Source: Gemmatimonadota bacterium
GTDB taxonomy: Bacteria > GCA-2686955
Assembly: GCA_002686955.1 (NCBI GenBank)
Contig: NYZA01000017.1
Span: 1 to 63,578 of the forward strand
Reading direction: 5' to 3'
DNA: 63,578 nt
In this document: piece after piece, positions 4,459 through 58,030 of the stretch
Layout: each line of letters opens with the position of its first letter
How positions within the stretch are numbered: position 1 is the first letter of the stretch
The notes under the pieces: generated by a model
Databases searched by the model: none
Told to the model about the DNA's origin: nothing
The model's input: the letters and a program-made list of their open reading frames with translations, nothing else
Made by a program: the position numbers and the translations under genes

Positions 4459-4654
4459 CGCCGACCCTCAAGGTCGGCGAAGACACAAACTTCCCGGGTT
4501 TGCGCCCAGATGTGCCGCAGATCTGGGCGATCGGTGAGCTCCGAAACCGGAGGAGTAGCAGCGCTACTTCGAGGATTTCGGAGCTCACCGATCGCCCGGA
4601 GATGTGGTGCAGATGGGATGCAAACATGGGAAGTTATTTCTTCGCCGACCCTCA
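4459..4654. repeat. Palindromic repeat, copy A
   Basis: This is a long, nearly complete inverted repeat. The inner arms 4525-4546 and 4576-4597 match perfectly over 22 bases. The apex has a six-base stem, AGTAGC at 4554-4559 and GCTACT at 4563-4568. The outer arms 4472-4524 and 4598-4650 match with scattered mismatches. The 12-mer CGCCGACCCTCA occurs at both ends (4459-4470 and 4643-4654). The right end supplies the stop codon of the receiver gene at 4652. Copies B (5506-5748) and C (57829-58030) share the same arms. Confidence 0.9.
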
Positions 4655-5125
4655 GTTGCCGCTGACGTAAGAGAACCAGACCACGCAGAGAATGATCCAG
4701 AAGGGGATCGAGAAGAGCGCCAGCCAGAACATGCCGCGGAAGAGCCCGAGCTGCTCGAGCAGTCGCTTCTTCTCGACCGCTCGACGAACGACGATCTCGA
4801 TCTGCTCCAGCTTGAATGGCTTGGTGATGTAATCGTACGCACCCAGCTTGATCGCCTGCACCGCGGAATCGATGGTCGGATACGCCGTGATCATCAACAC
4901 GACCGCATCTGGACGAACCAGCTTCACTTCGCGAAGCAAAGTGAGCCCATTCATGCGCGGCATCTTCAGATCTGTGATCACCAGATCGATCTGTTGCTGC
5001 TTGTACACGCGCAGCCCCACGTCTCCGTCGGAAGCCGTATGAACCTCGTGTCCCAACGACCGAACGGTCTCGGCGAGCATCTCGCGGAGCTCGTCCTCGT
5101 CATCGACGATCAGTATGCGAGCCAT
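4652..5125 (-). CDS. Receiver-domain protein with C-terminal transmembrane helix
   Basis: Residues 1-120 form a complete CheY-like receiver: acidic pair D9/D10, phosphoacceptor D52 in ITDLKMP, T80 and K102 in ITKPFK. After a short charged linker, residues about 132-153 (FWLALFSIPFWIILCVVW) form a strongly hydrophobic helix, and the protein ends four residues later. There is no output domain, so this is a single-domain response regulator apparently tethered to the membrane. No histidine kinase is adjacent. The reading frame ends in the flank of repeat copy A, so the repeat could have replaced an original 3' end. The 157-residue length and clean hydrophobic helix argue that the tail is used. 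Confidence 0.85.
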   Translation of the reverse strand: MARILIVDDEDELREMLAETVRSLGHEVHTASDGDVGLRVYKQQQIDLVITDLKMPRMNGLTLLREVKLVRPDAVVLMITAYPTIDSAVQAIKLGAYDYITKPFKLEQIEIVVRRAVEKKRLLEQLGLFRGMFWLALFSIPFWIILCVVWFSYVSGN

Positions 5126-5505
5126 CTGTTCCTCTGGAGAGCGAAGATGGAATAGCCCTCCCGAGATCCCGGGGGTGCGAATTCGACCGCGTCCTGCCGC
5201 GCAACCCTCAAGTCGTTCTCTTTAGTGGAGTTGCGCAAGAATAGCGAGTCGGCAGCCTAGCACGGGGCGGCAGCGGGGTAAAGCAGTGTTCCGCTCATCG
5301 ATCCTGCCTTGAAGACCTGGGGGGACCGCTCACTGGTGCGCTGGTCGCCGTGAAACATCGCCAGGCACGCCCCGCGGCTCCGCGCACACCGAACCTGCCG
5401 GCCTGAATGGACCCGAATCGACCGGGCGAAGCGCGCTCCAGCATTGCGTGACACGCTGAGCGTGCGCGAAGGCGTAGGCAAGGCCCCTCGGTGCGGTTCC
5501 TCGAC
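5126..5505. other. Intergenic region without recognised gene
   Basis: This holds the presumed promoter region of the receiver gene. The weak open frame crossing 5257-5598 on the minus strand runs through repeat copy B and resembles nothing known. A short inverted pair GCGCAA/TTGCGC near 5199-5235, followed by CAAGAATAGC, faintly resembles the ends of the palindromic repeats and may be a decayed remnant. The 34-base segment at 5361-5394 recurs near 29581. Confidence 0.5.
5361..5394. repeat. Short dispersed repeat, copy 1
   Basis: The first 23 bases of this segment match 29581-29603 with two differences, and the next bases are partly similar, ending in CCGAAC in both. Both copies lie between genes on the minus strand. 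The function is unknown. Confidence 0.5.
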
Positions 5506-5748
5506 TAAGGGTTCGCGCGAGAATAGAACGCTATTTTCGCATCCCATCCGCACTCCATCTCCGGCCGACCAGGCCCCGGGTTTGATACTGCAGGCCACTC
5601 TAGTGTGGCACTGCGCGCGGGGAGGTCGGCCTTCTCATCCCATCTCGAAATAGCCCGACTATTCCTGCGGTTTCGGAACTCACCGATCGACCAGATCCGT
5701 GGCACATCTGGGCGCAAACCCGGGTAGCTATCTCTTCGCCGACCCTTT
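5506..5748. repeat. Palindromic repeat, copy B, with a 73-base interruption
   Basis: This is the same family as copies A and C but in opposite orientation to both. One arm is 5506-5570 and the other is 5644-5748. A 73-base segment (5571-5643) replaces part of the central stem; it is bounded by GGCCGACC at 5563-5570 and GGTCGGCC at 5624-5631. The outer ends read TAAGGGTTCGCGCGAGAATA on one side and the complement of AAAGGGTCGGCGAAGAGATA on the other. The last six codons and the stop of glycerol kinase lie inside the repeat. Confidence 0.85.
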
Positions 5749-7233
5749 GATCCGAACCCGGGCAAGAGCTCGCAACCAGTCGGCATGTAGCGCGTCGGCC
5801 TCGGCCTTGCTGATCTTCGGCTCGAAAAGCGCTTCGCTCCGGCGGAGCGCCGCGAGCTCCTCCACGCCGGCGTAGAGACCGACCGCCAAACCCGCCAGGT
5901 AGGCCGCGCCGGCGGCGGTGGTTTCCGAGACGACCGGGCGGTCGACCGGAATGCCGAGCAGGTCGGACTGGAACTGCATCAGCAGGTCGTTGGCGGTGGC
6001 GCCTCCGTCTACCTTGAGGCAGCGCATCGCGACGCCCGCGTCCTTCTCCATCGCTTCGGCGACGTCGCGGCTCTGGTAGGCGATCGCCTCGAGGGAGGCG
6101 CGCACGATTTCGGACCGTCCCGCGCCTCGGGTGAGGCCGGTGATGGCGCCGCGGGCCCGCATATCCCACCAGGGAGCGCCGAGACCGACGAAGGCGGGAA
6201 TCACATGCACTCCCTTCGAGGAGTCGCACTCCCGCGCCACCACTTCGGAATCGGCGGCCGAGTCGATGATCCGCAGCTCGTCCCGGAGCCACTGGATCAA
6301 GGCTCCGCCGATGAAGACCGATCCTTCGAGGGCGTGGCAGGGGCCGAGGTCCTCTCCCACGGCGAGGGTTTCGAGGAGGCCGTGGTGGGATCGGTGGCGT
6401 TCCTCGCCGGTGTTGAAGAGGAGAAAACAGCCGGTGCCGTAGGTGTTCTTCGCATCGCCCGGCCGGATGCAGCCCTGTCCGAAGAGGGCGGCCTGCTGGT
6501 CCCCGGCGACACCGGCGATCGGAACCCCTTTCGCCGGAAACTCGTCCGCTTCGGCGCACCCGATCTCTTCGGAAGAGGGAAGAACGACGGGCAGGACGGC
6601 CGGCGGGACGCCGAGAAGCCCGCACAAACTATCATCCCAAACCCTCTTATCGATGTCGAAGAGTAGCGTGCGGGAGGCGTTGGTGAAATCGGTGGCGTGG
6701 ACCCGCCCTCGAGTGAGGCGCCAGATCAGCCAGGAGTCGATCGTTCCGAAGGCGAGCTCTCCGTTGGTGGCGCGGACGGCGAGATCGGGGTGGTTCCGGA
6801 AGAGCCAGGTGAGCTTGGTGCCGCTGAAGTAGGCGTCGAGGACGAGGCCGGTTTTGTCGCGAAATGTGTCGGTGTGGCCGGCGTCGCAAAGCTCGTCGCA
6901 GATCGGGGCGGATCGGCGGCACTGCCAGACGATCGCTCGGTGGACCGGTCGGCCGGTGGCGCGATCCCAGACGACGGTTGTCTCGCGTTGGTTCGTGATA
7001 CCGATCGCGGCGCAGTCGGAGCCGGAGATCCGCGCGTCGGCGAGGGCGGCATCCGCCGTTCGAACGACCGAGCGCCAGATCTCGTCGGCGTCGTGCTCAA
7101 CCCATCCGGGACGGGGATAGTGCTGCTCGATTTCCGAGTAGCCCCGGCCGACGACCTGCCCTTTCGAGTCGAAGACGAGGGTGGTGGTGCCGGTGGTTCC
7201 CTGGTCGATCGCGAGGATGTGCCTGGCGGGCAT
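5728..7233 (-). CDS. glpK: Glycerol kinase
   Basis: It phosphorylates glycerol to sn-glycerol 3-phosphate in the cytoplasm. The 501-residue FGGY-family protein has the N-terminal phosphate loop DQGTTGTTTLVFD, the substrate segment TGLVLDAYFSGTKLTWL, the GDQQAALFGQ motif and the C-terminal Gly-rich nucleotide region (LKVDGGATANDLLMQF). The ATG at 7233 has AGGAG seven bases upstream. The last residues (KGSAKR) and the stop codon are encoded by the end of repeat copy B, so the original C-terminus may have been altered. That should be harmless because it lies beyond the conserved fold. No glycerol facilitator or glpD is adjacent. Confidence 0.95.
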   Translation of the reverse strand: MPARHILAIDQGTTGTTTLVFDSKGQVVGRGYSEIEQHYPRPGWVEHDADEIWRSVVRTADAALADARISGSDCAAIGITNQRETTVVWDRATGRPVHRAIVWQCRRSAPICDELCDAGHTDTFRDKTGLVLDAYFSGTKLTWLFRNHPDLAVRATNGELAFGTIDSWLIWRLTRGRVHATDFTNASRTLLFDIDKRVWDDSLCGLLGVPPAVLPVVLPSSEEIGCAEADEFPAKGVPIAGVAGDQQAALFGQGCIRPGDAKNTYGTGCFLLFNTGEERHRSHHGLLETLAVGEDLGPCHALEGSVFIGGALIQWLRDELRIIDSAADSEVVARECDSSKGVHVIPAFVGLGAPWWDMRARGAITGLTRGAGRSEIVRASLEAIAYQSRDVAEAMEKDAGVAMRCLKVDGGATANDLLMQFQSDLLGIPVDRPVVSETTAAGAAYLAGLAVGLYAGVEELAALRRSEALFEPKISKAEADALHADWLRALARVRIKGSAKR

Positions 7234-7325
7234 GGGGGCTCCTGATTCGATGAGATGGGGAGTGGAACACGAATCGGTGTCGCGGACAAGCGGCGGGAGA
7301 GGGGGCGATCGGGTAGAGTCGGCCG

Positions 7326-8582
7326 ATGCTTTCGAGTCGAGCTTGGCGATCGCTTTCGATTCTCTGCGTCGCCTTTTGCGTCATGACCCGCGCGGCGCGG
7401 GGATCGGGTGGGCCCGTGGAGATGGCTCTCAATCCGGCCCTGCCGCTGGAGAGTGCGGTGGCGTTGGGCCTTCATCTCTCGGTGAACGAGGCGGAATGGG
7501 CGCCTCTTTCTCCGGCACCCGGTTACGACCAGCGGTTGCGGGTGACGACCGGCACGAGGACCTTCGCGCTGCCCGAGGCGGCGGTGGTCTGGCGGCACCG
7601 GCGCTGGAGATTCGGCGCGGCCTTCGAGCCTGATCTCCTGGGCGACACCGCCTGGGATCTGATGGCGCTCCCCCCGGGCTATGACGACGAGCGGGACGAC
7701 GCGGGAGTGGACTGGCGCTCGCGTGTCCATGCGGGGCGCTTCATGGGGTCGATCGGAGGCGAGCTGAGTGGATCGGTGCGGGCGGGCGCGTCGGTTTTCG
7801 TCGAGCGCTGGAGTGCGGAGATCGAACGCGTGCTCTCCACCCCATCGGAGCTGGCTCCTCCCCTCTCGGTCCTCTATACGCATTTTTCGAGTGAGGGGAC
7901 GGGCGTAGGTTTCGGCGCTTCGTTGGGGATCTGGGCGAGGGTGCATCCACACGTGACGATCGGGGCGGCCTGGAGATCGCGAGTGCGCGCGCGCTGGGAC
8001 GCGGCGGCGGCAGCTCGGACCGACGTGCCCGCGGCGCTACAGTGGAGCGAGGGATTGCCGAGCGAGGTCGAAGGGAGTGGAGCTCAGGCTTTCGAACGCC
8101 ATTCTCCCGCCGAGATCCGGATCGGGGGCCGCTACCAGCCGGTGCGACGGGGGGCGATGACGCTGGAGTTGATCCGGCGCGATGCGGGGGCGATCTCGGC
8201 CTCCGGCGCCGGGGAGTGGCTCGGGGGGCTGACGGCCGAGCTACCTGCGCCCGATTCCGACTGGAGGGTGGACTGGCGCTTGGCCTGGATAGGCGCCTGG
8301 TCGGTGGAATGGGATTGGGGGCCGGCGCGCACATGGGCGGGAGTCGTGATCGACGATGTGGCGCTGACCGAGCCGACGCCGCTCTTTCCACAGCAGTCGA
8401 TCTCGGCGGCGATTCGGACGGGCGGATCGGTTCGCGTCGGGGGGGCGCATCGGATCGAGGTGGATGCGGTTTATTGGGGGGAACGGGTGCGTGAGGAGTA
8501 TGTCGGCCTTTCCGGGAAGAGCCGATTCGGGGCGCGAACCATAGGGGTTCGTTGGATCTGGCTGCTGGGAGGGTCGGGATGA
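7326..8582 (+). CDS. FadL/OmpP1-like outer-membrane transporter
   Basis: The 418-residue product begins with a signal peptide (LSILCVAFCVMTRAARG). It continues as amphipathic beta strands with NPALPLESAVALGL near the mature N-terminus and AEIRIGGRYQPVRRGAMTLELI in the second half. This is the pattern of FadL-type hydrophobic-compound porins. The family usually imports fatty acids or aromatic compounds, but the substrate here is unknown. The stop codon overlaps the start of the next gene (ATGA at 8579), so the two are probably co-translated. It diverges from glpK across a 92-base intergenic region. Confidence 0.7.
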   Translation: MLSSRAWRSLSILCVAFCVMTRAARGSGGPVEMALNPALPLESAVALGLHLSVNEAEWAPLSPAPGYDQRLRVTTGTRTFALPEAAVVWRHRRWRFGAAFEPDLLGDTAWDLMALPPGYDDERDDAGVDWRSRVHAGRFMGSIGGELSGSVRAGASVFVERWSAEIERVLSTPSELAPPLSVLYTHFSSEGTGVGFGASLGIWARVHPHVTIGAAWRSRVRARWDAAAAARTDVPAALQWSEGLPSEVEGSGAQAFERHSPAEIRIGGRYQPVRRGAMTLELIRRDAGAISASGAGEWLGGLTAELPAPDSDWRVDWRLAWIGAWSVEWDWGPARTWAGVVIDDVALTEPTPLFPQQSISAAIRTGGSVRVGGAHRIEVDAVYWGERVREEYVGLSGKSRFGARTIGVRWIWLLGGSG

Positions 8583-9910
8583 TGCGCTTTGCGTTCATGA
8601 TGTCATCGAGTGTTGTTGTCGCGGCCGCGGCGCTCGCCGGATGCGAGAGGGCCGAGGTAGTCGAAGTGTCTCGTCCACTTGCTCGAGGTGAAGTGGTCGA
8701 GGTGGTCGTGAGCGATCCGGCGGTCGAGACGCAGCCTTCACTTCGTGATGGTGGCGGAGAGGGTCCGCCGAGCTATTTCGCCTACCTGCCGGCGAGCGCG
8801 GAGGGGCCGCTCCCGGTGCTCTATCTCTTGTCCGATGTGGGACAGGATCAGAGCGCCTTTCCCTATTTCCTTGGGCTCGGCGCGCTGCTCGATGAGCTGA
8901 TCGAGTCGGAAGAGATCGATCCGATCTTGGTGATCATGCCGAACGGCTTGAACGAGATGGGTGGTGGCTTCTACACCGATTCGGTCCTCTTTCCCGGTGG
9001 CGACCCTTTCGCGGATGCGGCATTCGGCCCCTGGGGACTCGAGCTCTTGCGGGTGATCGAGGACGCCGAGCACCGCTTTTCGACCGATACGGAGCCTTTC
9101 GACGTCGACGCGGTGCTCGCGGGGCAGGGGTCCGCGAGGGGCAGGGCGATCGGGGGGCTGGGGATGGGGGCGTATGGAGCATTCGTTACGGCCTTGCGGG
9201 CGCCGGTCTTTGAGGCTCTGCTCCTTCACTCCGGCTTTTTTGATCTGCGGAGCGGGGTGATGGCGGACGATCCGGTGCTGGGTGAGAGTTGGGGAGACCG
9301 GCTGCTTCGAGAAAGCAACGATGTTTTGGGGAGCGATCATCTCGTGCCGGAAAGCGCGGGGTTGCGGGAGGTGGGCGAGGCGCCGATGACGCGGCTGATC
9401 TTCGCCATGGCGGCGGCTTTTTCGCCGGCGGCCGGGCCGCTAGATTCATTCGACATGGCGTCACTGATCGATACGAGCCTCGTTCACGCCGATCCCGACG
9501 GCGACCCGCTGAACAATTTCCAGTATCCGATTCGGCAGGTCGGAGGAGCCGAGACGCCCGAAGATCCGGAGGACGATCTGTGGCTGGGGGTTTGGCTACC
9601 GGTCCAGGCCGACGGGGGGATTGTCGATGGAGTGTTGCTGCGATGGAGTCTCTATTACGATCCGTCGTTCTTGGCGAGCAACGGTGGTTTGATGGGGGCG
9701 CTGGAAAATGCGGGGACCGGGCTTTGGATCGACGCCGGAACGAGGGACGAGTACGGACTCGCGGACGACGCCGAGCACTTCGCCGAAGTCGCCGGAGCTC
9801 ATCTGAGCTCGATCGTGTATGAGCAACATTCCGGGGCTCATGACGACAGAGTCAACGAGCGATTGGGGCTTTCGCTTCGCTGGGTGTCGGAGCGGATCGG
9901 TAGCGACTGA
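8579..9910 (+). CDS. Lipoprotein of the EstD/Fes-type esterase family, nucleophile serine missing
   Basis: The start ATG at 8579 overlaps the stop of the porin gene. A lipoprotein signal ends in ALAGC. The alpha/beta-hydrolase fold of the putative esterase family is recognisable: LPVLYLLSDVGQDQSAF, then ILVIMPNGLNE. At the nucleophile elbow, where the family has GLSMGG, this protein reads GLGMGAYG (codons ctg ggg atg ggg around 9160-9175), so the serine is a glycine. Candidate acid (DAGTRDEYG) and histidine (SGAHDD) residues remain. It may be a non-catalytic binding protein or use another mechanism. The pairing with the FadL-like porin suggests a role with a hydrophobic ester or surface ligand. 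Confidence 0.75.
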   Translation: MMRFAFMMSSSVVVAAAALAGCERAEVVEVSRPLARGEVVEVVVSDPAVETQPSLRDGGGEGPPSYFAYLPASAEGPLPVLYLLSDVGQDQSAFPYFLGLGALLDELIESEEIDPILVIMPNGLNEMGGGFYTDSVLFPGGDPFADAAFGPWGLELLRVIEDAEHRFSTDTEPFDVDAVLAGQGSARGRAIGGLGMGAYGAFVTALRAPVFEALLLHSGFFDLRSGVMADDPVLGESWGDRLLRESNDVLGSDHLVPESAGLREVGEAPMTRLIFAMAAAFSPAAGPLDSFDMASLIDTSLVHADPDGDPLNNFQYPIRQVGGAETPEDPEDDLWLGVWLPVQADGGIVDGVLLRWSLYYDPSFLASNGGLMGALENAGTGLWIDAGTRDEYGLADDAEHFAEVAGAHLSSIVYEQHSGAHDDRVNERLGLSLRWVSERIGSD

Positions 9911-9942
9911 TCCGCATTTCTCTCCAACTTTCGTCGCCTTGA

Positions 9943-10251
9943 CCGGGCCGCTGGAGTGCCGACATAGAAGTCCGGCACGCAACACATCTTCTTCTCGAGA
10001 CGACCTACCATCCGCGACTCCTGGCCGAGGTGGATGGGCAGCCCGCCCCGGTCGACGAGCTGACGCTGCATTTCGCCGGGATTCGCGTCGGCCGGGGTCG
10101 CCATGAAGTGAGGGTGCGCTACGAGCCGAGGCTGTGGCGCGTTTCCCTGATGTGGCTGGGCCTCGCCCTCTTCGGCGTATGGATCGGCGTGGAAGAGCTC
10201 GGCGGAAGAAAGCGAATCGAACGCCGGAACCGCGTCAGATCCGCAGCGTGA
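9943..10251 (+). pseudogene. C-terminal remnant of a YfhO-like membrane protein
   Basis: After the stop at 9940-9942 the frame is open for about 102 codons. It reads DIEVRHATHLLLETTYHP, then AEVDGQPAPVDE, GRHEVRVRYEPRLWR and one hydrophobic helix (SLMWLGLALFGVWIGV). This matches the C-terminal ending of YfhO/glycosyltransferase-39-type membrane proteins, where a soluble beta domain with a DGRPAP motif is followed by a final membrane helix. The usual preceding several hundred residues with about 12 helices are absent. The only start codon is the GTG at 10030. The end overlaps the convergent kinase gene at 10235 by 17 bases. I read it as a truncated gene. Confidence 0.7.
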
Positions 10252-11167
10252 GCGCCCCGGGCAGCACGTCGAAGGTAGCCGGGAGTCGACCGGGTTGCTC
10301 GCCATCCACGTCGAGGAGGACATTACTCCCGCCGGGAGAGTCGAGCCTGATATGAGTGGCTCGCCGCCAGAGGACCCTAGGGTCGTCGAGTGCCGATCCC
10401 CGGTAAATCTTCATGAGCAGTCCGAACGCCTCGAGGGGTGGACAATGCCCGATCGCAACGAAGTCGAGCTCCCCATCGGAAGGATCGGCGCGAGCCGCGA
10501 TCTGCATTCCCCCCCCGAAATAGCGGCAGTTGGCCACCGCCACGACGCCGGCATCGATCTCATGCCGCTCCGCTCCGTGGTTCAGATCGATCTGAACCCG
10601 CTGGGGATGGTGCCGGGCGATCGCCACGATCGATCCCGCCAAGTAGGCCACCGTGCCGGGCAGAGATTTCATCGACTCGACGTATTTCACCGTTTCGCCC
10701 CCGAGACCGGCGTCTGCGACGTTGACGCAGTGGCGGACGATGGTGGTGCCATCGTCCGTCTCGAACCGGATTCTCACTGCGTCGATCTTCTCCCTGCGAC
10801 CGCTTGCGATTCCGAGCATCGCCCGCTCGGACGATCGTGAGATGCCCAGTGTGCGGACCAGATCCCCCCCCGTTCCGGAGGGGACGATTCCGAGTTCCGC
10901 CGAAGCTCGCGCACCTCCACCTGCTCGGACGAGCCCGTCGACCACCTGAGAGATCGTGCCGTCGCCCCCGACCGCAATCACGGGTGAGCATCCCTCTCCG
11001 GCCGCGGCCTCCGCCAATCTTACTGCGTGACCGGACTCCCGGGTCGTAACCATGTCGATCTCATCGAAGAGCCGGCGGCCGAGATCTAGAATCCGAGGAA
11101 GGCGGCGGCCGGTCGCGCCCCCGCCGGAGCGGGGATTCGCGATGATGAGTGCTCGCGACCGTGTCAG
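10235..11167 (-). CDS. Diacylglycerol/lipid kinase family protein (YegS/DgkB-like)
   Basis: The product phosphorylates a lipid such as diacylglycerol or a related substrate. The conserved GGDGT motif (VIAVGGDGTISQVV), GTGGDLVRTLG and the C-terminal DVDGEQ segment are present. Translation of the frame upstream of the first ATG (11053) continues the family N-terminus: RALIIANPRSGGGATGRRL, about 38 residues. That upstream part has no ATG, GTG or TTG after the last stop. The likely start is therefore a rare codon such as the CTG at 11167, overlapping the 3' end of the preceding gene by 4 bases. With it the protein is about 310 residues, normal for the family. Confidence 0.88.
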   Translation of the reverse strand: MTRSRALIIANPRSGGGATGRRLPRILDLGRRLFDEIDMVTTRESGHAVRLAEAAAGEGCSPVIAVGGDGTISQVVDGLVRAGGGARASAELGIVPSGTGGDLVRTLGISRSSERAMLGIASGRREKIDAVRIRFETDDGTTIVRHCVNVADAGLGGETVKYVESMKSLPGTVAYLAGSIVAIARHHPQRVQIDLNHGAERHEIDAGVVAVANCRYFGGGMQIAARADPSDGELDFVAIGHCPPLEAFGLLMKIYRGSALDDPRVLWRRATHIRLDSPGGSNVLLDVDGEQPGRLPATFDVLPGALTLRI

Positions 11168-11904
11168 AAACGGATTCCAATGCTCGCCAACCAGGTCCAG
11201 CCGGTGAAATCGAGATCGTCGGTCTGGTCGTCCACGACCTCAGCGGGGTCGCTGTCGATGTTTCTCACACGGAAGAGCGTGTACGCTCCCCCGAGAGAGA
11301 TCGGAAAGTCGGGATAAGCGTCCGCGTCCAGATAAGGGAGTGTAAAGGTGATCCCGGTCCCTAGCTGCCAGAAGGTCCCCCAATCCTCGTAGTAGGTCTG
11401 ACGAATGAAGGGAAGGGAGCGGTCTCCGGTGCCGTGATTCTGAAACATGGTGCCGTTGGCCGCGCCGACATTGAATTGCCCGTAGATTTCGGTGCGGGGG
11501 GTGAAGAGAGGTCGCAGGTACTTCATCAACCCATAGATGCCCACGTAGCCCGGCTGGAGCTTGAAGTCGTCGTCGGAATCGAAGACCGCGGGAGCGTCGT
11601 CCTCCGTCACACCGAAGGCGCCGGGATTCCGCTCGCTGGCGGTCGAATAGTTCAATCCCAGGCCGACATAGGTGTAGCCCATGCTCGCCGGAATCGCCAA
11701 CGCCTGGATCTGGTACTCGAAACCGAGGAATGAATCCCCCCCGATCTCCTCTCCGGCCACCGAGAAGTTGTAGGTGGACGACGACCCCCAACGCAAAGCG
11801 AATTCTTGAGAGTGGGCGATCCACACGGCTCGTCCGGATGTCGCCCCGCACAGCACGAGGAAAGCCGACAGTCCAATCGATCTGAATGTGCTTTGGTATC
11901 TCAT
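11164..11904 (-). CDS. Outer-membrane beta-barrel protein, unknown function
   Basis: The 246-residue protein has a signal peptide (SIGLSAFLVLCGATSGRA). It then has repeated amphipathic strands rich in Tyr, Trp and Gly (MGYTYVGLGLNYS, YVGIYGLMKYLRPLF, TWLASIGIRF). It ends in Phe, the usual recognition residue for BAM-mediated insertion. The length fits an 8-10 strand barrel. It is followed with a four-base overlap by the lipid-kinase gene and lies 19 bases after ubiB, so it is probably co-transcribed. No specific function can be assigned. Confidence 0.65.
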   Translation of the reverse strand: MRYQSTFRSIGLSAFLVLCGATSGRAVWIAHSQEFALRWGSSSTYNFSVAGEEIGGDSFLGFEYQIQALAIPASMGYTYVGLGLNYSTASERNPGAFGVTEDDAPAVFDSDDDFKLQPGYVGIYGLMKYLRPLFTPRTEIYGQFNVGAANGTMFQNHGTGDRSLPFIRQTYYEDWGTFWQLGTGITFTLPYLDADAYPDFPISLGGAYTLFRVRNIDSDPAEVVDDQTDDLDFTGWTWLASIGIRF

Positions 11905-11923
11905 GCTCGAACTATAGCGCTTT

Positions 11924-17669: not shown

Positions 17670-17697
17670 CGATTCTCCTACTCCAGCTTCGTGGTCG

Positions 17698-18606: not shown

Positions 18607-18616
18607 ACCCGCGAGT

Positions 18617-22799: not shown

Positions 22800-22834
22800 G
22801 CGCGAGGGTGCGCCCGGCTGAGCTCCCGGTACGA

Positions 22835-25358: not shown

Positions 25359-25365
25359 TCCCTTG

Positions 25366-25998: not shown

Positions 25999-26001
25999 GT
26001 C

Positions 26002-43174: not shown

Positions 43175-43192
43175 CTGAAGACAATGACGTGA

Positions 43193-43238: not shown

Positions 43239-43516
43239 AACGACTTGTCAGATGGGCTCCTTCCCTGCGCACTGCGGGGGCGAACGAACGAGGTCCGGAA
43301 TGATCCGTGGGAGCCGCCCCGAAGTCAAGCGCGGCCGTAACTTGGCTCCGGCGGCATGGGCACGCGGATTAGGGCGAATCTCATCCACTCTCCCATTCAA
43401 GGATCGGCCACGCTCACGCCGATGTAGCGGTAGGTCGGATTGCGCGGTTGCGCGCATTCACGCAACGCCGACCTGGGCAGACCGCTTCCACCTCTCCCCG
43501 CTAGAGAACGATTCAC

Positions 43517-48433: not shown

Positions 48434-48445
48434 TCCTTTCAATAG

Positions 48446-48598
48446 GTCGATCGATCGAAAAACAACCAGCTCGCGCTCCGCGAAAAGAGCCTCGGGGTGA
48501 TCACGTGTGGCATCACGGTGAACTACCTCTACGAAAACCTGTCGGAGGGGCGGGGCCTTAGCCATTTGCACATCGGTGTGTATCCAGCTCCGGCGGAG
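48446..48598 (+). pseudogene. Internal scrap of indolepyruvate oxidoreductase alpha subunit (IorA)
   Basis: The frame opens after a stop at 48443-48445 and encodes LREKSLGVITCGITVNYLYE and LSHLHIGVYPAP. This matches the IorA segment at the start of its second PFOR domain, typically LGVITSGISY followed by KLG and YPLP. The rest of IorA, meaning the pyrimidine and TPP domains and the two ferredoxin clusters, is absent on both sides. The scrap runs in frame into IorB. It starts 12 bases after the giant kinase stop codon, so deletions have occurred on both flanks. Confidence 0.72.
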
Positions 48599-49405: not shown

Positions 49406-51516
49406 ATTGCATTGCGATCGACGCGATCGACAATCAGCTCGCCCCCGTCGACCCGGGCCGAACTCAATTGAAGGGCATCGATCCACAGGCCATCTGGAAG
49501 GGTCGTGGAGAGGCGCACGGTGACCCTGGCGGGGCCGCGGTTGACCAAGACACCGGCGCGGTCTTTTCCCTCACGCCGGTCCATGTAGAGGAGCCCTCCG
49601 TCGGTTTCCGCGACTCTGAAGTCGACCAATGCGTTGCGAAGCGCCGGTGACTCGCGACGAACCCGAAGACCCTGGCGGATCGCATGAAGCAGATCGCGAT
49701 CCCATGTAGACTCCGTCCAGTCGAAGGCGCGCCGGTTGTCGGGATCTCGGTCCCCTTTCATAGCCACTTCATCGCCGTAGTAGATCAAGGGGGCGCCCGG
49801 CCATGTAAGCAGGAAGAGCAGTCCCAGCTTGGCTCTTTCCGCATCGCCGCCGCAGACCGTGTTCCAGCGCGCAGTGTCGTGGCTGCCCAAGAGATTGACC
49901 ATCGCCTCCGTGACGACCATCGGATGGGCGCGGAGCAGAGTTCTCAACGAGCGCGCGAACTCGCCCGCGCTGATCGACTGCTCCCCGAAGAAAGCAACGC
50001 ACGCACGCCTGAAGCGGTACCCCGTAACACCATCGAGCTCGTCGCCTTCCAGCCACGCGCGGGGATCGGCCCAGATCTCACCGAGAAGAAAGGCATCTTC
50101 CTCAACTCCGCCCGGTGCCTCCCGCACCACATTCCTGAAGGTGCGCCAGAATCGATGCTCCAATCGTTCCGCGGCGTCGAGACGCCAGCCGTCGATCCCC
50201 TCCGCCATCCAGCGTCGAACCGCGCCGTGTAGATGGGCGAGCACATCCGGATGATCGGTCCGTAGCTCTGGCAGATGCCCGTATCCATTCCACGCGGCAT
50301 AGTTCGGTCGTTCCGGCGGCGCGATGGGGAAAGAATCGACCATGTACCACGCGGCATAGGGCGATGCCGAGCCCCTCTCGAAGAGATCCCGAAAAGCCGG
50401 GTGTTTATCGCCGGAATGATTGAACACGCCATCGAGCACGATCCGCATACCACGGCGCTCGAGCTGCGCCATGAGCCCGCGGAAATCGGCGAGCTCACCG
50501 AGGTGGGGATCGATGTGGTTGTAGTCCGCGACATCGTATTTGTGATTCGAGGGTGACGTGAAGATCGGATTGAGATAGAGGGCCGTCGCTCCCAGCTCCT
50601 CGATATGTGTGAGGTGATCGGTGATACCGGCCAGGTCGCCCCCCTGGTAGCGGTAATGGCCCGGTCGACTGCCCCAGGGATCGGTTTTTCGAGGATCGTT
50701 CGTGGGATCGCCGTTCGCGAATCTCTCCGGAAATATCTGGTAGAAGACGGCGTCACGAACCCATCGAGGAGGCAGATTCCGTCTATTCGCCGCGGCGGGT
50801 CGGGCGAACGAGCCGGATTCGGGAATCTCTTCTCGTACGCCGGCGGCGCCGAAATAGAGCGTCGTTTCGCCATCCTCGATTCGGAAGCGGTAGCCGCTCG
50901 ACCGTGGGCTGGCCGGCAGCTCAGCCGCCCACACCGATTCCACACCTTCATCGCCTAGGTGCACCATGGCGATCCACGATCGATCGATCCACTGGACGAA
51001 CGCCTTTGAAACATCGCCCGATCGAGTCAAGAGGCGTACTTCGACGCTTCCGTCGAGGTGGGCGCTCACCCAAGGGCGCCCTTCGGGATGGCAGATGCGC
51101 TCGACATCGATCTCTCCATCCGCGCGCCTCACCGCCGGCCAGCGCGGCGCCTGAAGCTTGAGCACGCCGTTGCGTCCCCCGTAGCCGTCCGGCTCCGTCG
51201 CATACGCATCGGGGTCGCAGATGTACCGTTTGCCGTCTTCGAGGAATTTGTACCGATGGGTCCTCGGCAAGAGAAACATCGTCTCGTGAAACCATCCCGA
51301 GTCATCCGGTCCTATCATCGGCGTCGACTCGAGATCCCAGCCGTTGAAGCTGCCCACGATATGGACCTGCGTCGTCCCCTCCGGCGGATGATGGCGAAAC
51401 GAAACCGGTATGAGAACCCGAGACCGGTTCGCTTCGCCCTCAGCGACGTCATGTGGTGGGCGGGCGCAGGTGGAGACCGAAAACGCAGCGATCACCCCAA
51501 AGGTCCGAATCTTCAA
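49363..51516 (-). CDS. Alpha-amylase family (GH13) lipoprotein
   Basis: The start is TTG at 51516, overlapping the malG stop (TTGA) and preceded by GGGAGGGG. The lipoprotein signal is KIRTFGVIAAFSVSTC. An N-terminal immunoglobulin-like glycogen-binding module (TQVHIVGSFNGWDLEST) and a second beta domain precede the GH13 barrel. The barrel has DGVFNHSG, GWRLDAAERL (nucleophile Asp), FLLGEIWAD (acid Glu) and LLGSHDTAR. All catalytic residues are present. The 717 residues and N-terminal modules resemble neopullulanase/cyclomaltodextrinase types. It probably cuts alpha-glucans at the cell surface for the adjacent importer. Confidence 0.92.
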   Translation of the reverse strand: MKIRTFGVIAAFSVSTCARPPHDVAEGEANRSRVLIPVSFRHHPPEGTTQVHIVGSFNGWDLESTPMIGPDDSGWFHETMFLLPRTHRYKFLEDGKRYICDPDAYATEPDGYGGRNGVLKLQAPRWPAVRRADGEIDVERICHPEGRPWVSAHLDGSVEVRLLTRSGDVSKAFVQWIDRSWIAMVHLGDEGVESVWAAELPASPRSSGYRFRIEDGETTLYFGAAGVREEIPESGSFARPAAANRRNLPPRWVRDAVFYQIFPERFANGDPTNDPRKTDPWGSRPGHYRYQGGDLAGITDHLTHIEELGATALYLNPIFTSPSNHKYDVADYNHIDPHLGELADFRGLMAQLERRGMRIVLDGVFNHSGDKHPAFRDLFERGSASPYAAWYMVDSFPIAPPERPNYAAWNGYGHLPELRTDHPDVLAHLHGAVRRWMAEGIDGWRLDAAERLEHRFWRTFRNVVREAPGGVEEDAFLLGEIWADPRAWLEGDELDGVTGYRFRRACVAFFGEQSISAGEFARSLRTLLRAHPMVVTEAMVNLLGSHDTARWNTVCGGDAERAKLGLLFLLTWPGAPLIYYGDEVAMKGDRDPDNRRAFDWTESTWDRDLLHAIRQGLRVRRESPALRNALVDFRVAETDGGLLYMDRREGKDRAGVLVNRGPARVTVRLSTTLPDGLWIDALQLSSARVDGGELIVDRVDRNAIYIFRSASPPPRLP

Positions 51517-52496
51517 TCTTTCACCCCTCCCAGAGTAAGACCGCTGATCAGCCATCTGTTGAGGAAGAGAAAGAGCACCACGACCGGGATGCTCACGATG
51601 AGTGCGGCGGCTGCATAGAGTCCCCATTCGGTCGTCATATTCGATTGAAACGATTTGAGGCCGACCGGAAGTGTGAAGAGCGCCTCATTCTGCAGTATCT
51701 GCGCAGCCACGATGTAGTCGGTCCAGGCGTTCATGAAGCTGAAGAGCGCAGTGATTACCAGAGCCGGGGCGGATAGAGGGAGCACGATCCGCACGAATGC
51801 TCCCCATCTGCCGGCGCCGTCGATGAGAGCGGCCTCTTCGAGGGAGCGCGGAATGGTGTCGTAATACCCTTTCATGAGCCAGATCGAGAAAGGCAGCGCC
51901 GTAGAGACGTAGATCACACCCAGTCCCATGAATGTGTTGACCAGCTGCAGGCGCGCGAGAAGGATGAAAAGAGGGAGCAGCAACATCGTCGCCGGAAACA
52001 TCTGCGTCGTGAGCACTCCGAGAAGCCCGGCGCGCCGCCCGGGGAAACGGAATCGGCTGAACGCGTAGCCGGCCGTCGATGCGAAAGCGAGACCGATCAA
52101 GGTCGCAACACCCGATACGAGAATCGAATTCCGCATCCAGATAAGAAAGGGTTCATCCGTGAAGAGACGTGCGTACGCATTGAAGGTGCTGTTCGGGGGG
52201 AAGATGGCCAACGATGTGGAGAGGAGTTTGTCGCCCGGTCGGAGCGAAATCGAGACGACGCGGAGCACCGGAAAGAGAGCAATCGCGGAGAAGGCGCACA
52301 GGACGAGGTGGCTCAAGAACCGGGTCGGGCGGGGGAAGCGTTCCAGAAGATCGAGTCCCGGCGGCGCCATCAGAAAGCCGAGTCCCAGAACGATCGCGGC
52401 AACGATCGCTCCTCCGAATGGAACTCCCAGCCAGAGCAGGAAGGGAGCCCAGAGCATCGAAGCGATCAGAGCGGGTCTGAGACCGCGGATTCTCAT
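51513..52496 (-). CDS. malG: Maltose-type ABC transporter permease MalG
   Basis: This inner-membrane subunit of a carbohydrate importer has 327 residues from the ATG at 52496, which overlaps the stop of the upstream gene as ATGA. Two N-terminal hydrophobic helices (WAPFLLWLGVPFGGAIVAAI) precede the standard MalG core. The core carries the EAA loop EEAALIDGAGRWGAFVRIV, which contacts the ATPase. The C-terminus ends GLTLGGVKD, typical of MalG (GLTAGAVKG). No ATPase gene (malK/msmX) is in the window. Confidence 0.93.
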   Translation of the reverse strand: MRIRGLRPALIASMLWAPFLLWLGVPFGGAIVAAIVLGLGFLMAPPGLDLLERFPRPTRFLSHLVLCAFSAIALFPVLRVVSISLRPGDKLLSTSLAIFPPNSTFNAYARLFTDEPFLIWMRNSILVSGVATLIGLAFASTAGYAFSRFRFPGRRAGLLGVLTTQMFPATMLLLPLFILLARLQLVNTFMGLGVIYVSTALPFSIWLMKGYYDTIPRSLEEAALIDGAGRWGAFVRIVLPLSAPALVITALFSFMNAWTDYIVAAQILQNEALFTLPVGLKSFQSNMTTEWGLYAAAALIVSIPVVVLFLFLNRWLISGLTLGGVKD

Positions 52497-54751
52497 CGGG
52501 CAACGCTCCCCTCGTCGGCCTGAGTGCCTCTGAGAAACGTTATGCTGAAGGCCGCCAGCAGCCCGAAAATCACCATCGATAGGGCGGCGGCGTATCCGTA
52601 TCGGTACAGATTGAACGCCGCCTTGTACACATAGGTCACCAGGATATGCGTCTGATCCGAAGGCTCGCCCCCGTTCGAAACTAGCCAGACGACATTCAAG
52701 TTGTTGAAGGTCCAGACGATGCCGAGCGTGACGGCGGGGATCATGACCGGCTTCAGCAAGGGCAGCGTTACATGCACCAGACGATCCCACGGCCCCGCAC
52801 CGTCGATCGTGGCCGCTTCGTGCAGATCGACCGGGATCGACTGCAGGGCGCCGAGAGCGATCATCATCATGAAGGGGAAGCCAAGCCACACATTGGCGAT
52901 GAGGCAGGCCGCGAATGCGTTACCGTCACCCGAGAGCCAGGCCACCGGCGAGAGCCCGATCTTGGCCAGGATCAGATTGACCGCTCCGTATTCGGCGTTG
53001 AACTCACCGCGCCATGTGAGGGCGGTAATGTACTGGGGAACCGCCCAGGGCAGAATCAACAGCGCTTTGTAGACCCGTTTCGCGGCCAGATCCTGTTGAA
53101 TCACTAGCGCCAGCAACACACCGAAGAAAACGTGTAGCGTGACATTTCCCAGGGTCCACACGAGGGTGCGGAACAGAACCTGATAGAAAACCGGATCCGC
53201 GAAAACCCTAGCGTACTGAGCTAGTCCGACGATATGCCAATCTCGGATCGAGGCCATGCTCATATTGCTGAGCGATATGAGCAGGTTGTAACCGAATGGA
53301 TAGGCCACGACCGCGAGCATGGCGAGGGCCGCTGGCGCCGCCATCAGGAGCGCGAAGCGCGTGTTGCCGCGCTCGGTGCCCGCGCGCATTTGCAAGAGGG
53401 GCAGAACGAAGCGCACGATGGTGAGATAGAGCGCTACCAGCAACGCAAGCCCCGCGCAAACGAGCACTGCCCCGATCGTCATCGCCGAGGGCGTGTCGGT
53501 GGCGCCCGCGCGCATATCGCGTATGCCCCTCTCCGCCGCTTCCTGCATCAGAGCTCCCGCCTCGCCTGCCTCGATCCGGCCCCCCATCACGCCCTGCACG
53601 ATCGGCCTCATGCCATCCCATATCGCCCGCATCTCGGGCACGATCGGCATCGGCACGCCGACCTCCGCCTGCTCCATCGAGGCCCGAAGAATCGGATCGC
53701 TCCGGATCGCAGGCATCTCCATCACTTCGCGATCGGTTGGGATCACGGAGAGGGCCGAAGAGAAACGGGATTGCACTTGGGGCCCGGTCAGATAGACCAG
53801 AAGATCGCGGGCCGCCGAGAGGCGTGGACCCTTCTCGAGGTTGCCGCTCAGAGAGTACCCCTTGGCCGAGACCATCGGCGCGGGCCAGAGCCCGGTCTCT
53901 TCGATCAACGGGATCCGCACGATTTCGATCTCGAGGCCCGCGTCGGCATAACCCGCCCACGACCATGGGCCGTTGATGATCATGGCGGCGCGCCCCTCTT
54001 TGAAGAGGGTGTCCGCGATGTCGTAATCGCACTCTCTCGGGATCAACCCGTGTTTGTCGCGCAGCGCGAGCACGAATTCGAGCGCCCGCGTCATCGCCTT
54101 CGAATCGAGAGTGGGAAAGGCGTCGCTGTTCATGACCCGGCCGCCGTACCCACCCAGGAAAGGGACGAAAAAGAAGGGTTCGGTGTAGTTCCACACCAAG
54201 CCGTAGCGTTCAGGCCGCCCATCCCCATCGTCGTCGCCCGCAACCCTCTTCGCGGCCTCGATCAGCTCTGCCATCGTCGTTGGGGGATCGGACACCAGGT
54301 CACGGTTGACCACCAGCGCGAGGTGGTTCCCGACCACCGGGGCGAGCTGATAGAGACGGCCTTCATGCCGAACCAGGCCTTTCGAGTCGAAGCGCGAAAT
54401 CGTCTCGGCATCGATCAGCTCATCAAGGGGCAGGATGATCCCCATCGAAGAGAAGGGGCCGACCTGATCGGAAGGGCCGAAGATCAGCTCCGGTCCGGCG
54501 CCGGCGACTGCGGCGGCCTGAAAGCCGCTACGCAGCTCCTCGGTCTCTTTGTAGAGAAGATCGATCTCGAGATCGGGATGATCGCTTTCGTACCGGTCGA
54601 CTACCTCCCGCAGGATCGCGCGCTCCTCCGGACGCATCTGATGCCAGATGGTCAGCCGCCCCTCCCACTCGCGCGGAGTGCATCCGGTGAGGACGAGGAA
54701 GAGAATCGCGGGCGAGAAACGTGTTCTTGACGAGGTCCGCCGAGCTTGCAC
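52493..54751 (-). CDS. Fused maltose-binding lipoprotein and MalF permease
   Basis: The GTG at 54751 has AAGGAG five bases upstream; the longer frame is a shadow of the acylase gene. The first roughly 430 residues are a lipoprotein solute-binding domain (signal RFSPAILFLVLTGC, then LTIWHQMRPEERAILREVVD, AMIINGPWSWAGYAD). Membrane helices follow (TIGAVLVCAGLALLVALYLT; ALAMLAVVAYPFGYNLLISL) and then a MalF-type permease with the EAA loop HEAATIDGAGPWDRLVHVTL. Binding protein and permease are thus one 752-residue chain, so the receptor is tethered at a fixed 1:1 ratio. It is followed by malG and amylase with overlapping codons. Confidence 0.9.
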   Translation of the reverse strand: MQARRTSSRTRFSPAILFLVLTGCTPREWEGRLTIWHQMRPEERAILREVVDRYESDHPDLEIDLLYKETEELRSGFQAAAVAGAGPELIFGPSDQVGPFSSMGIILPLDELIDAETISRFDSKGLVRHEGRLYQLAPVVGNHLALVVNRDLVSDPPTTMAELIEAAKRVAGDDDGDGRPERYGLVWNYTEPFFFVPFLGGYGGRVMNSDAFPTLDSKAMTRALEFVLALRDKHGLIPRECDYDIADTLFKEGRAAMIINGPWSWAGYADAGLEIEIVRIPLIEETGLWPAPMVSAKGYSLSGNLEKGPRLSAARDLLVYLTGPQVQSRFSSALSVIPTDREVMEMPAIRSDPILRASMEQAEVGVPMPIVPEMRAIWDGMRPIVQGVMGGRIEAGEAGALMQEAAERGIRDMRAGATDTPSAMTIGAVLVCAGLALLVALYLTIVRFVLPLLQMRAGTERGNTRFALLMAAPAALAMLAVVAYPFGYNLLISLSNMSMASIRDWHIVGLAQYARVFADPVFYQVLFRTLVWTLGNVTLHVFFGVLLALVIQQDLAAKRVYKALLILPWAVPQYITALTWRGEFNAEYGAVNLILAKIGLSPVAWLSGDGNAFAACLIANVWLGFPFMMMIALGALQSIPVDLHEAATIDGAGPWDRLVHVTLPLLKPVMIPAVTLGIVWTFNNLNVVWLVSNGGEPSDQTHILVTYVYKAAFNLYRYGYAAALSMVIFGLLAAFSITFLRGTQADEGSVAR

Positions 54752-54800
54752 GAGCGCTCCTTTGGCGCGTGTCGGAGGCCACAGTCTACCAGCAGCCAAA

Positions 54801-57320
54801 TCAACCGTCGCGCGGTGTTTGATCTCGGGCGATCTCCTGCGGCACGAGCTGCCAGATCTCTTCGGCGTCGGCGTCGATCGAAGCCTCTTCGAACAGCACC
54901 GGCCGGTACTCCCCCTCGAAGTACATCTCGGCCTGATCAGCGTAGTGGTCCGATCCCGGAAGCCCCGAGTTCCCCCCTGGGAGCACCATCCACGCCCGAA
55001 TCCCAGCGGGGTCCATCTCGGCGACCAGACGGAAGCCCGACTCCATCGGACTGACGGTGTGATCGCCCGAATCGATGGGGCGAGCGGCACGCGATCGCGG
55101 CGGGTAGTCGTACTCACCGCCCAGGGGATGCGACAGACGCTTGGTGTGGATCTCTCCCCATTCCCACTCTCCGATCTCCGGTGTTCCGAAGCGCAGAGCC
55201 AGGGCATCGAGGCTCGAATCGAGAGCCTCGATCAGGATTTCCTCCTTGGTCTCCACGCGATCGGTGGTTTCGGCGTCGTCCCAGAGACGCTCGCCCGTTC
55301 GCGCCTCGTCCGGATTGTCGAGCAGGTGCAAAAGGCCGCTGAGAGCCGTGAAGTCGAAGAAGAAACCCTCGCCGATATCGTCGTCGAGGAGGGCATGGGC
55401 GGCGGCGAACCACCATTCATGGAAGATCGATTGTTCATGGGACGAGACCAGCGCCCGCGTATCCCAACTTTCGAGGGCTTCGAGCGCCTCCGCCGCCTCC
55501 GCGTCGACCAGATCGCTTCGCGCGGCGGCCGCTTCAAAGAGGTGAGGCAAGAGACGTTCCGCCGCCTCGACCCGCACATCGTTCTGAGTCTCCATCATGT
55601 CGCCGATCGTCAGAGGCGTGCGGGCGATCAGCTCTTCATGGATTCGGCGCTGCCGGAAGCCCAGGTCATGGCCGTAGGCGTAATAGACGGGATCGTTGGT
55701 CAAACGGTTGTCGAAAGCGTAGCCCGCGGGATCGTTGTTCGATGTCGCGATGAACCCCCGCGGCGGCGAGATCGAGCTCAGGTAGTCCCCGCGATCGAGG
55801 CGTCCACGCCATTCCCACAGCCCCCCTCCCATTCGGGGCCAGTACGGCTGCAGCATGTCTTTGAAGCGGCGGATCGGAAAGGTGCCGGTAACCGTGTAAC
55901 CGATATCGCCGTACACATCGGCAACGACCATATTCGCGCCGAAAACATCGATGTCACGGCTCGCTTCGAGCGCTTCATCGGCGTTTGTCGCGCGCATCCG
56001 GCGGAGCAGCGGCTCTACGAACGTCGCCTTTTCGAAACCGACCCAACGATAGCTCAACGCGCGCCGCCCGAAGAGCGCCTTCGCCAGAATCGGTCCGTGG
56101 TGGGGCACATAGAATGTCGTCGGCTCCTCGATCAGATCGCTTCGATCGACCAGCTCACCGTCCACGAGCGCGAAATAGGTCTCGTGGCGCACCTCCACGT
56201 CGACCAATTCCCCCATGAAGATGACCCGATTCGGTAGCAACAGTTTTTCCCAAAAGAGATCGCTGCCGTCGACGGGGAGCACGGTGTATGCCCATGCGGC
56301 GTTTCGATTGAATCCGTTGGCGACGACCGGCCCGCCGGGGATCGTAACTCCGTACACGTCCAACGCCGCTTCCGGTGCGGAGAGATGCATTTCGTGATAG
56401 ATGGGCGGCAAGGGAGTTCCCACGTGGTTATCGCTGGCGAAGAGGGCGAAGCCGGATTCCGAACGGTGGCCAGCGACAGTCCAAGCATTCGATCCGCCGC
56501 TCTCGAACCAGGGGTTCTCTTCGATCACCCGTGTCCAGAGCGCGAGCGCCTTGTCGACCGCCTCCTGCAACCCATTGAAGAGATCTCCCCGCTCCACCTT
56601 CGGTGTCGCGGATGCCTCGGAATTCCGCGGTCCCAGCGCTCCTCCGCGCGGGCGCAGGTGTTCCTGATACTCCCCCGGATAGAGCGCGGGCACGGTATCG
56701 GCCGGCGCCAGTCGAAGCACGTCTTCCCGTATGTCGGCGGGGATCGCGAGCGAGGCGGCGGTCTTGAGCAGATCGATCCCGATCGCCTGTGTCAAGACGA
56801 AGATGAAGCCCCCGAGCGAACGCATCGAATCTCGCGCCTCCCAGGGAACGATGTCGCGCGCTTCGAGGCCGAGATCCTCGTACTCCGGAGGAAGGCGCAG
56901 GCCGGGGTGTCCCGAGATGAGCGCCTTTCGCCAGGCGTTCACCCCCTCGGTGTAGGCCTCGAGCACGGCCCTGTCCTTCGCTTCAAGGCCGTCCCACATC
57001 AGACCGGTCCCCCAGTCGATGCCCAGAAGGCGCATATCGTGGTCGGACGCCACCGATCCCTCCCCCAAGAGCTCCGCCTTCGTGCCGCGGATCGTGCGTC
57101 GGGTGATGTCCATCTGAAAGAAGCGATCGCGCGCGTGCGCGAAGCCCATAGAGAGCCACACATCACGCTCGGTTTCGGCTCTCAGATGGGGAACGCCCCA
57201 GGAGTCGTAGACGATCTCGACCGGACGCTCCAGCGTCGGCGCCTGCATCTGGTGGATCGGGATCTCCGCGACCGCCGAGAGTGGAAGAAGGAGTGAGAAC
57301 GACAAGGCGAAGAGGCGCAT
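54801..57320 (-). CDS. Penicillin acylase family (Ntn) amidohydrolase
   Basis: From the ATG at 57320 (MRLFALSFSLLLPLSAVAEI, signal peptide) the 839-residue precursor has the alpha part (YDSWGVPHLRAETERDVWLS, MGFAHARDRFFQMDITRRTI). A linker and the autocleavage site GGSNAWTVAG follow, where Ser would become the N-terminal nucleophile of the beta chain. The beta-chain motif FNRNAAWAYTVLPVDGSDLF is also present. The family hydrolyses penicillins, acyl-homoserine lactones or other amides; the true substrate is unknown. The long open frame upstream to 57371 lacks a signal. It lies in the same direction as the transporter genes but is not clearly related to them. Confidence 0.92.
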   Translation of the reverse strand: MRLFALSFSLLLPLSAVAEIPIHQMQAPTLERPVEIVYDSWGVPHLRAETERDVWLSMGFAHARDRFFQMDITRRTIRGTKAELLGEGSVASDHDMRLLGIDWGTGLMWDGLEAKDRAVLEAYTEGVNAWRKALISGHPGLRLPPEYEDLGLEARDIVPWEARDSMRSLGGFIFVLTQAIGIDLLKTAASLAIPADIREDVLRLAPADTVPALYPGEYQEHLRPRGGALGPRNSEASATPKVERGDLFNGLQEAVDKALALWTRVIEENPWFESGGSNAWTVAGHRSESGFALFASDNHVGTPLPPIYHEMHLSAPEAALDVYGVTIPGGPVVANGFNRNAAWAYTVLPVDGSDLFWEKLLLPNRVIFMGELVDVEVRHETYFALVDGELVDRSDLIEEPTTFYVPHHGPILAKALFGRRALSYRWVGFEKATFVEPLLRRMRATNADEALEASRDIDVFGANMVVADVYGDIGYTVTGTFPIRRFKDMLQPYWPRMGGGLWEWRGRLDRGDYLSSISPPRGFIATSNNDPAGYAFDNRLTNDPVYYAYGHDLGFRQRRIHEELIARTPLTIGDMMETQNDVRVEAAERLLPHLFEAAAARSDLVDAEAAEALEALESWDTRALVSSHEQSIFHEWWFAAAHALLDDDIGEGFFFDFTALSGLLHLLDNPDEARTGERLWDDAETTDRVETKEEILIEALDSSLDALALRFGTPEIGEWEWGEIHTKRLSHPLGGEYDYPPRSRAARPIDSGDHTVSPMESGFRLVAEMDPAGIRAWMVLPGGNSGLPGSDHYADQAEMYFEGEYRPVLFEEASIDADAEEIWQLVPQEIARDQTPRDG

Positions 57321-57395
57321 GGCGAATCCCGTGTTGAGCGGCGGGCCGCGATCAAGAGTGGCAACGATCAATGAAAACCGATCGACCCGTCGTTG

Positions 57396-57845
57396 TCAGT
57401 CCCCCATTTGCCCAAAGATCGCCCGCACTCTCATCCCCTCCGCCTCGACCCTCAGCGATCTGTTTCTGACTGCGAGCTCCTCGCCCACCCAGGAGCCGGG
57501 CTGGCCCGAGTTGGTGAACTTGTACTCCACGCTCGCCCCGAGCGGCAGCTCCACGCCCAAGCTCCAGATGCCATCACCCGCTTGGCGATCGGCCCCCTCC
57601 CCATCGTCGCGCATCGCGATCCGATTCGGCACCCACGAGTCTAGGAGCCTGTTGCACATAGCCTTCGCTTCGCCCTCGGACCCCCATTCAGAAACGGAGG
57701 TGAGCGCGAGATCGACCCAAGGATCGCTGCGGCCGCTCCACGCCGACAGGAAGCGCGCTGAATCGAAGCTTCGAGCGTGGCTTCCTGCTCCAGGAGCGAG
57801 GACATACTGCTCCATCCTGTCGACATAATATTCTTGCGCGGACCC
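57396..57845 (-). pseudogene. C-terminal fragment of a split, probably GH57, glucan hydrolase
   Basis: The frame begins directly after a stop codon in repeat copy C (57846-57848) and encodes QEYYVDRMEQYVLAPG, then a helix and a C-terminal beta domain. That domain reads IAMRDDGEGADRQAGDGIWS, GASVEYKFTNSGQPGSWVG and LAVRNRSLRV. It is the starch-binding, E-set-like ending often found after glycoside hydrolase domains. The first ATG is at 57815. The matching N-terminal start is on the other side of the repeat (58028-58231). The central catalytic part of several hundred residues is missing. Confidence 0.6.
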
Positions 57846-58030
57846 TTAGGGTCCGCGCAAGAATAACTTGTCATCTTGGCGCCCAGATGTGCCGCAGATC
57901 TGGTCGATCGGTGAGTTCTGAAACCGGAGGAATAGTCGGGCTATTTCGAGGATTTCGGAGCTCGCCGATCGGCCGGAGATGTGGCGCAGATGGGATGCTA
58001 AATGGCAAGTTATTCTTGCGCGGACCCTTA
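57829..58030. repeat. Palindromic repeat, copy C
   Basis: The left end has a perfect 17-base inverted pair with a three-base loop (57829-57845 and 57849-57865). The central stem, near 57905-57923 with 57953-57971, is the same as in copy A with changes that still pair as G-U on the plus strand. The right end (58010-58030) repeats TATTCTTGCGCGGACCCTTA found at the left end. It separates the two fragments of the GH57-like gene and supplies stop codons for both. Confidence 0.88.

Follow-up and report, generated by a model that had tools for sequence, protein, structure and literature searches.

A type II MITE of the ISAzo13 type in a Gemmatimonadota genome, with relatives in several phyla and a possible constraint on its one-strand fold

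Results

The window, the whole 63,578-bp stretch of Gemmatimonadota DNA analysed here, contains three palindromic MITE copies, two of which abut a further TIR or a probable TIR remnant. Copy A has a length of 181 bp (4471–4651, plus strand) and belongs to a sub-type whose terminal inverted repeat (TIR) is GGGTCGGCGAAGAAATA; it was delimited by its TIR pair and by a TCA target-site duplication (TSD) at 4468–4470 and 4652–4654. The right TCA doubles as the TGA stop codon of a response-regulator open reading frame (ORF) on the minus strand (4652–5125). Direct reading of the sequence shows that copy A is abutted by CGCCGACCC (4459–4467, minus strand), which is probably a 9-bp TIR remnant of another element. 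Copy C (57849–58027, plus strand, 179 bp) carries the perfect TIR GGGTCCGCGCAAGAATA at both ends, and TSD analysis placed it between TTA duplications at 57846–57848 and 58028–58030. A lone TIR on the minus strand (57829–57845) abuts copy C with the junction GGACCC-TTA-GGGTCC. Copy B (5509–5745, minus strand, 237 bp) has the left end GGGTTCGCGCGAGAATA and the right end GGGTCGGCGAAGAGATA. The two ends represent different sub-types and the flanks, TAA and TTT, do not match, so copy B is a chimera or decayed.

The window contains six TIR matches, compared with 0.13 expected from shuffled sequences, so that the palindromes reported at these three places by the first-pass annotation are present far beyond chance. 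The exact complement of the stem quoted for copy A was found within that copy, and copies A and C share one orientation, opposite to that of copy B, as had been described. The limits had been set too wide and were moved to those given above. The claim that every copy lies at a gene 3′ end and supplies a stop codon holds for copy A and for copy B, in which ORF 5728–7233 stops 18 bp within the element. Copy C is an exception: ORF 57396–57815 begins beside it, and the nearest gene 3′ end (58228) lies at a distance of about 200 bp.

The home genome is a draft metagenome-assembled genome (MAG) of 4.28 Mb in 270 contigs and is 84.5% complete. A blastn search with copy A returned 163 first-look candidates. 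The terminal motif AGGGTCSGCGMAAGAATA matched at 191 places with at most three mismatches, whereas the reversed control pattern matched at five. The family thus comprises about 190 TIR ends and roughly 100 elements, so that the earlier description of a repeat family was correct, and its number of three copies an underestimate. The two grounds named in the first-pass annotation for doubting the family were a lack of further copies in this genome and its relatives, and copies that are assembly duplicates. The former is contradicted by the roughly 100 copies at home and the relatives in other phyla described below, and the excess of TIR matches across the genome shows that the copies are not local assembly duplicates.

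For most of these places the surrounding sequence was fetched, in 88 merged segments with a total of 276 kb, and the pairing of inward-facing ends yielded 61 complete elements of 40–237 bp. Most of them belong to size classes of 179–182 bp and 86–99 bp (mostly 87 or 98 bp), and a few have 40, 57, 151 or 237 bp. Among the forms of 87 and 98 bp, many correspond to the 179-bp consensus without an internal stretch, at about 90–99% identity, and the remainder are more diverged. The TIR is about 22 bp long, with the consensus GGGTCCGCGCAAGAATAACTT. The subterminal arms vary among copies (CTTGTCAT, CTTCCCAT, GAATGCTAT and CTAGCGAT), and mostly pair with the opposite arm of their own copy. None of the complete copies contains a gene or encodes an ISAzo13 transposase.

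The mobile unit starts with GGGTYCGCGCAAGAATAACTT, ends with its inverted form, is bounded by GGG...CCC, and has a 3-bp duplication of the target TNA on its two sides. An exact 3-bp TSD was present in 32 of the 61 complete copies (12.5 expected; maximum of 22 in 2000 shuffles), whereas duplications of 2, 4 and 5 bp were at or near the chance level. The TSD is mostly TAA, TTA or TCA, within a wider target preference for C-TNA-G. Several elements adjoin a second TIR as GACCC-TNA-GGGTC, at 57829–57848 and probably at 4459–4470 in the window, and in home contigs C131, C191, C244 and C252. The abutting TIRs suggest that MITE borders are preferred targets. Many home contigs end within MITE copies. 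An empty orthologous site was not seen; the one same-family genome belongs to another genus and lacks this MITE.

At three loci in other genomes, ISAzo13 transposase genes (PF07592) are enclosed by the ends of the MITE with TNA at the border, and one of these loci (L253) has the TSD TTA/TTA. At four further loci, a single TIR end lies 35–140 bp beyond the transposase domain. A 1.4-kb ISAzo13 element in Bryobacterales RHO3_bin_36 has an internally deleted DDE core and ends that differ from those of the MITE by at most one mismatch, and is apparently an intermediate between an IS and a non-autonomous element. Its N-terminal region looks unrelated. Four ISAzo13 copies from a general genome sample have ends with a TNA-G...AATAA pattern, a copy on a Streptomyces plasmid fits TNA-G...AAT more loosely, and no clear end was found in several further, mostly decayed ISAzo13 copies. 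The similarity between the MITE and ISAzo13 is limited to about 22–26 bp at the ends.

ISAzo13 was detected in 7 of 27 genomes with the MITE TIR, compared with 11 of the 385 genomes in the remainder (p = 5e-5, Fisher test), two samples that are not fully independent, since genome G149 appears to be the Fermentibacteria genome G396; the gene was undetected in the other 20 TIR-bearing genomes. The home genome contains a single ISAzo13 remnant (C200:3186–3596) with an in-frame stop, in which a search for recognisable ends found none, and the 84.5% complete assembly holds no ISAzo13 copy with matching ends. The autonomous transposase with matching ends envisaged in the first-pass annotation therefore exists, as ISAzo13, in other genomes, and is represented at home only by the decayed remnant.

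The home genome also contains a 2.4-kb IS with two genes, for an HTH protein and a Transposase_29 protein (PF21804), which starts with GGGTCCGCGCAAGAATAACTT. The MITE TIR occurs at five ends of this IS, in contigs C99, C102, C108 (3483–5945), C22 and C131 (position 1649). All five ends sit at the AACTT of the MITE arm (GACTT in C102; AACTC in none). In C108, the IS splits a MITE in two: AAGAAT(AACTT) precedes it and (AACTT)GTCATTTGGC follows it, with the 5-bp duplication visible on both sides. The homologues of this IS in genomes G210 and G149 have ends of the form CAG(A/G)..TCCTGA and 5-bp AAGTT duplications, and lack the GGGTC arm. The five ends at AACTT and the split MITE indicate that the IS is a separate element, which lands in the MITE and is not its mover. 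Transposase_29 elements in G210, G149 and G265 have an end motif near TCAG(A/G)nnTCCTGAnnT, and their HTH and DDE parts form one ORF in G149 and two ORFs in others. A comparison of the Transposase_29 protein with plasmids and viral contigs gave no match, and a literature search for PF21804 and the TIR string returned nothing relevant.

Other candidate partners were rejected. An IS5-type MITE was considered because the target is TNA; the two PF01609 hits in the home genome lack such ends, and PF13359 had no hits. Two TIR pairs in other genomes have their ends 1.4–2.3 kb apart: one (L188) encloses an apparent polynucleotide phosphorylase gene and represents two separate MITEs, and the other is the deleted ISAzo13 of Bryobacterales. 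The ORFs shared by two TIR loci (L157 and L237) are ordinary genes, with no transposase among them.

A scan of named genomes found exact TNAGGGTYCGCGCAAGAATA in at least 95 contigs. The matches listed include genomes of Acidobacteria, Nitrospinota, Nitrospirae, Lentisphaerae, Planctomycetota, Fermentibacteria, and delta- and gammaproteobacteria, as well as the isolate strains Sedimenticola hydrogenitrophicus SB48 and SN1189, which carry the TIR around a different interior. Most of the TNAGGGTYCGCGCAAGAATA loci among these matches are palindromes of 157–240 bp with TNA flanks. An interior profile built from 39 long copies matched full-length MITEs in Thermoanaerobaculales (E 1e-28) and Desulfobacterales (3e-24), at two loci in Fermentibacteria, and at five in deltaproteobacterial MAGs. 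MAGs assigned to several phyla contain MITEs of 157 bp whose interior differs from this one but is shared in part (around GGCAAGGCGCGAGGA...GAGCAACGCCGCCAG), including Nitrospinota B83T1B8 (more than one locus), Planctomycetota B58T3L14, Acidobacteria B71T1B8 and Nitrospirae SZUA-215. The presence of these 157-bp MITEs across phyla may reflect horizontal spread or bin contamination.

One strand of the palindrome folds better than the other, with mean energies of −126 and −95 kcal/mol, and has the lower energy in all 39 long copies. The ratio of G-T to A-C among the non-Watson–Crick oppositions inside the TIRs is 18:17 for rare differences and 19:2 for those of mid frequency, and the consensus has a ratio of 7:0. 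Double changes affect 32 pairs, compared with 19.3 in shuffles, a control that ignores the relatedness of copies. When relatives were oriented by sequence alone, the same strand folded better in ten of ten, perhaps representing six independent lineages. A fold-free self-alignment count of the asymmetry gave 255:44 for home copies and 46:16 for nine relatives, but it was weak, mixed or reversed in some families from other phyla, such as Dive100 and AA62. An apical hairpin is preserved in the alignment with the relatives, and TCGAGGA comes after it in most cases; the changes include that from GAATAG/CTATTT to GCGTAG/CTACGT. Since the old oppositions are mostly G-T and not A-C, whereas the recent ones are balanced, past selection on a one-strand fold, of RNA or single-stranded DNA, is suggested. 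New mutations look neutral, and the lineages that spread appear to have kept the fold; past copies may thus have been selected for stable folding of one strand. The structured-RNA option of the first-pass annotation is compatible with the better folding of one strand in all long copies and with the mostly G-U type of the old differences. None of the Rfam 15 models matched the window at the gathering score, and a comparison of copy C with the same models returned two miRNA families only, far below that score.

Genes were called with a simple codon-usage caller, which would fail to reveal the disruption of a gene by an element; no element lay within a called gene. A gene end was located within 25 bp of the element for 35 of 57 adjoining 3′ ends, compared with 13 of 58 adjoining 5′ ends (p = 3e-5). 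The stop codon is at or inside the element in 17 cases, and insertions at gene 3′ ends often have it within the target duplication. The favoured TSDs include TAA and TCA, which reads TGA on the other strand, so that an element entering at a stop codon re-creates that codon, as seen for copy A. The TSD preference explains the stop-codon pattern without a regulatory role. A long copy lies beside a gene 3′ end in 21 cases, nine with the structured strand in sense and twelve with it in antisense orientation. The suggestion of a terminator or attenuator family found no support as regards terminators and is not favoured, since the direction of the structured strand varies relative to the genes.

Discussion

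Of the options offered by the first-pass annotation, the MITE-like mobile palindrome was the right one, since the palindromes have TIRs, 3-bp TNA duplications and about 100 dispersed copies. They are short and non-coding, and share their TIR with an autonomous element, ISAzo13, found in other genomes. Both the TIR sequence and the 3-bp TNA duplication are as in ISAzo13. Because the complete copies do not exceed 237 bp and lack a transposase, the element is an ISAzo13-related MITE and not an ISAzo13 IS: a type II MITE of the ISAzo13 type that is distributed across phyla and may be under a constraint on its one-strand fold.

Based on the shared ends, the ISAzo13 transposase is the best-supported candidate for the mover, and the palindromes are very probably non-coding type II MITEs that keep ISAzo13-family TIRs and are moved by a transposase of that family. 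The ISAzo13 transposase (DDE_Tnp_ISAZ013, PF07592) would recognise GGGTYCGCGCAAGAATAACTT and excise or copy the MITE, which would then enter a C-TNA-G site with duplication of the 3-bp TNA. We infer that the home copies were moved by such an enzyme, which is now lost from the genome or unassembled, save for the decayed remnant.

The alternatives account for parts of the data. The TIRs at five ends of the Transposase_29 IS would be expected if it were the autonomous partner, but its own ends, CAGACCTCCTGA, its 5-bp AACTT/AAGTT duplication and the split MITE in C108 make this very improbable. Palindromes of the REP/BIME type, spread by a RAYT (tyrosine) transposase, would fit the high copy number, the palindromic form and the preference for gene 3′ ends. 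However, REP/BIME palindromes are characterised by the lack of a TSD, whereas those described here combine long TIRs and a 3-bp TSD, and their ends match ISs with DDE transposases. RAYT-associated REPs are not known to have such TIRs and duplications, and we give this origin almost no weight. An assembly or binning artefact might be suspected in a draft MAG of 270 contigs, many of which end inside copies. It is nevertheless hardly credible, given that the roughly 100 copies differ in their flanks and have matching TSDs, that the family recurs in genomes assembled independently, and that the two Sedimenticola isolates carry the TIR.

The strand bias of the fold, the excess of G-T oppositions and double changes, and the agreement among relatives could also indicate a structured RNA or attenuator with a primary host function and secondary mobility. 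This is improbable, since the TSDs and scattered positions point to mobility, the structured strand lies in either direction relative to adjoining genes, rare and probably recent changes disregard pairing, the fold-free asymmetry is weak or reversed in some families from other phyla, and Rfam has no match for the palindromes. More tentatively, and still as an unlikely proposal, the element might be a mobile structured hairpin of RNA or single-stranded DNA, in which a one-strand fold with the apical hairpin GGnnTAGnnnnCTAnnTCGAGGA was selected during spread through multiple phyla, so that proliferation would need a transcript or single-strand fold in addition to the ends.

The literature searched contains no MITE family tied to ISAzo13, and a paper returned for the two together draws no link between them. 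Within these sources, the link to ISAzo13 and the recurring interior appear to be new, whereas the class of MITEs is known. If the ISAzo13-type MITE interpretation is true, a single transposase end sequence sustains palindromic parasites across many phyla, with recurring interiors that would be unusual for MITEs. The family offers natural material for the question whether selection on the spread of MITEs acts on the interior fold besides the ends. It also offers a case of one IS, Transposase_29, that uses another element as a landing site.

The palindromes resemble ISAzo13 ISs (PF07592) in the TIR type TNA|GGG..CGCAA.AATAACTT, in insertion beside TNA, and in the TTA/TTA duplication of L253, but they are 40–240 bp long, carry no gene, and are similar at the ends only. 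The Transposase_29 IS is joined to MITE ends in the home genome, but differs in its own ends and 5-bp duplication. Type II MITEs of bacteria include Chunjie of Geobacter uraniireducens, QMITE2 of Coxiella, and the Correia element of Neisseria, and QMITE2 is a target for another IS, IS1111 (PMC10969869). By their description, these elements are likewise short, non-coding and present in many copies, with TIRs, direct repeats and shortened forms, and the landing of IS1111 in QMITE2 parallels that of Transposase_29 in the home MITE. In contrast to these elements as described, the TIR of the home MITE and the interior of this sub-type recur in several phyla.
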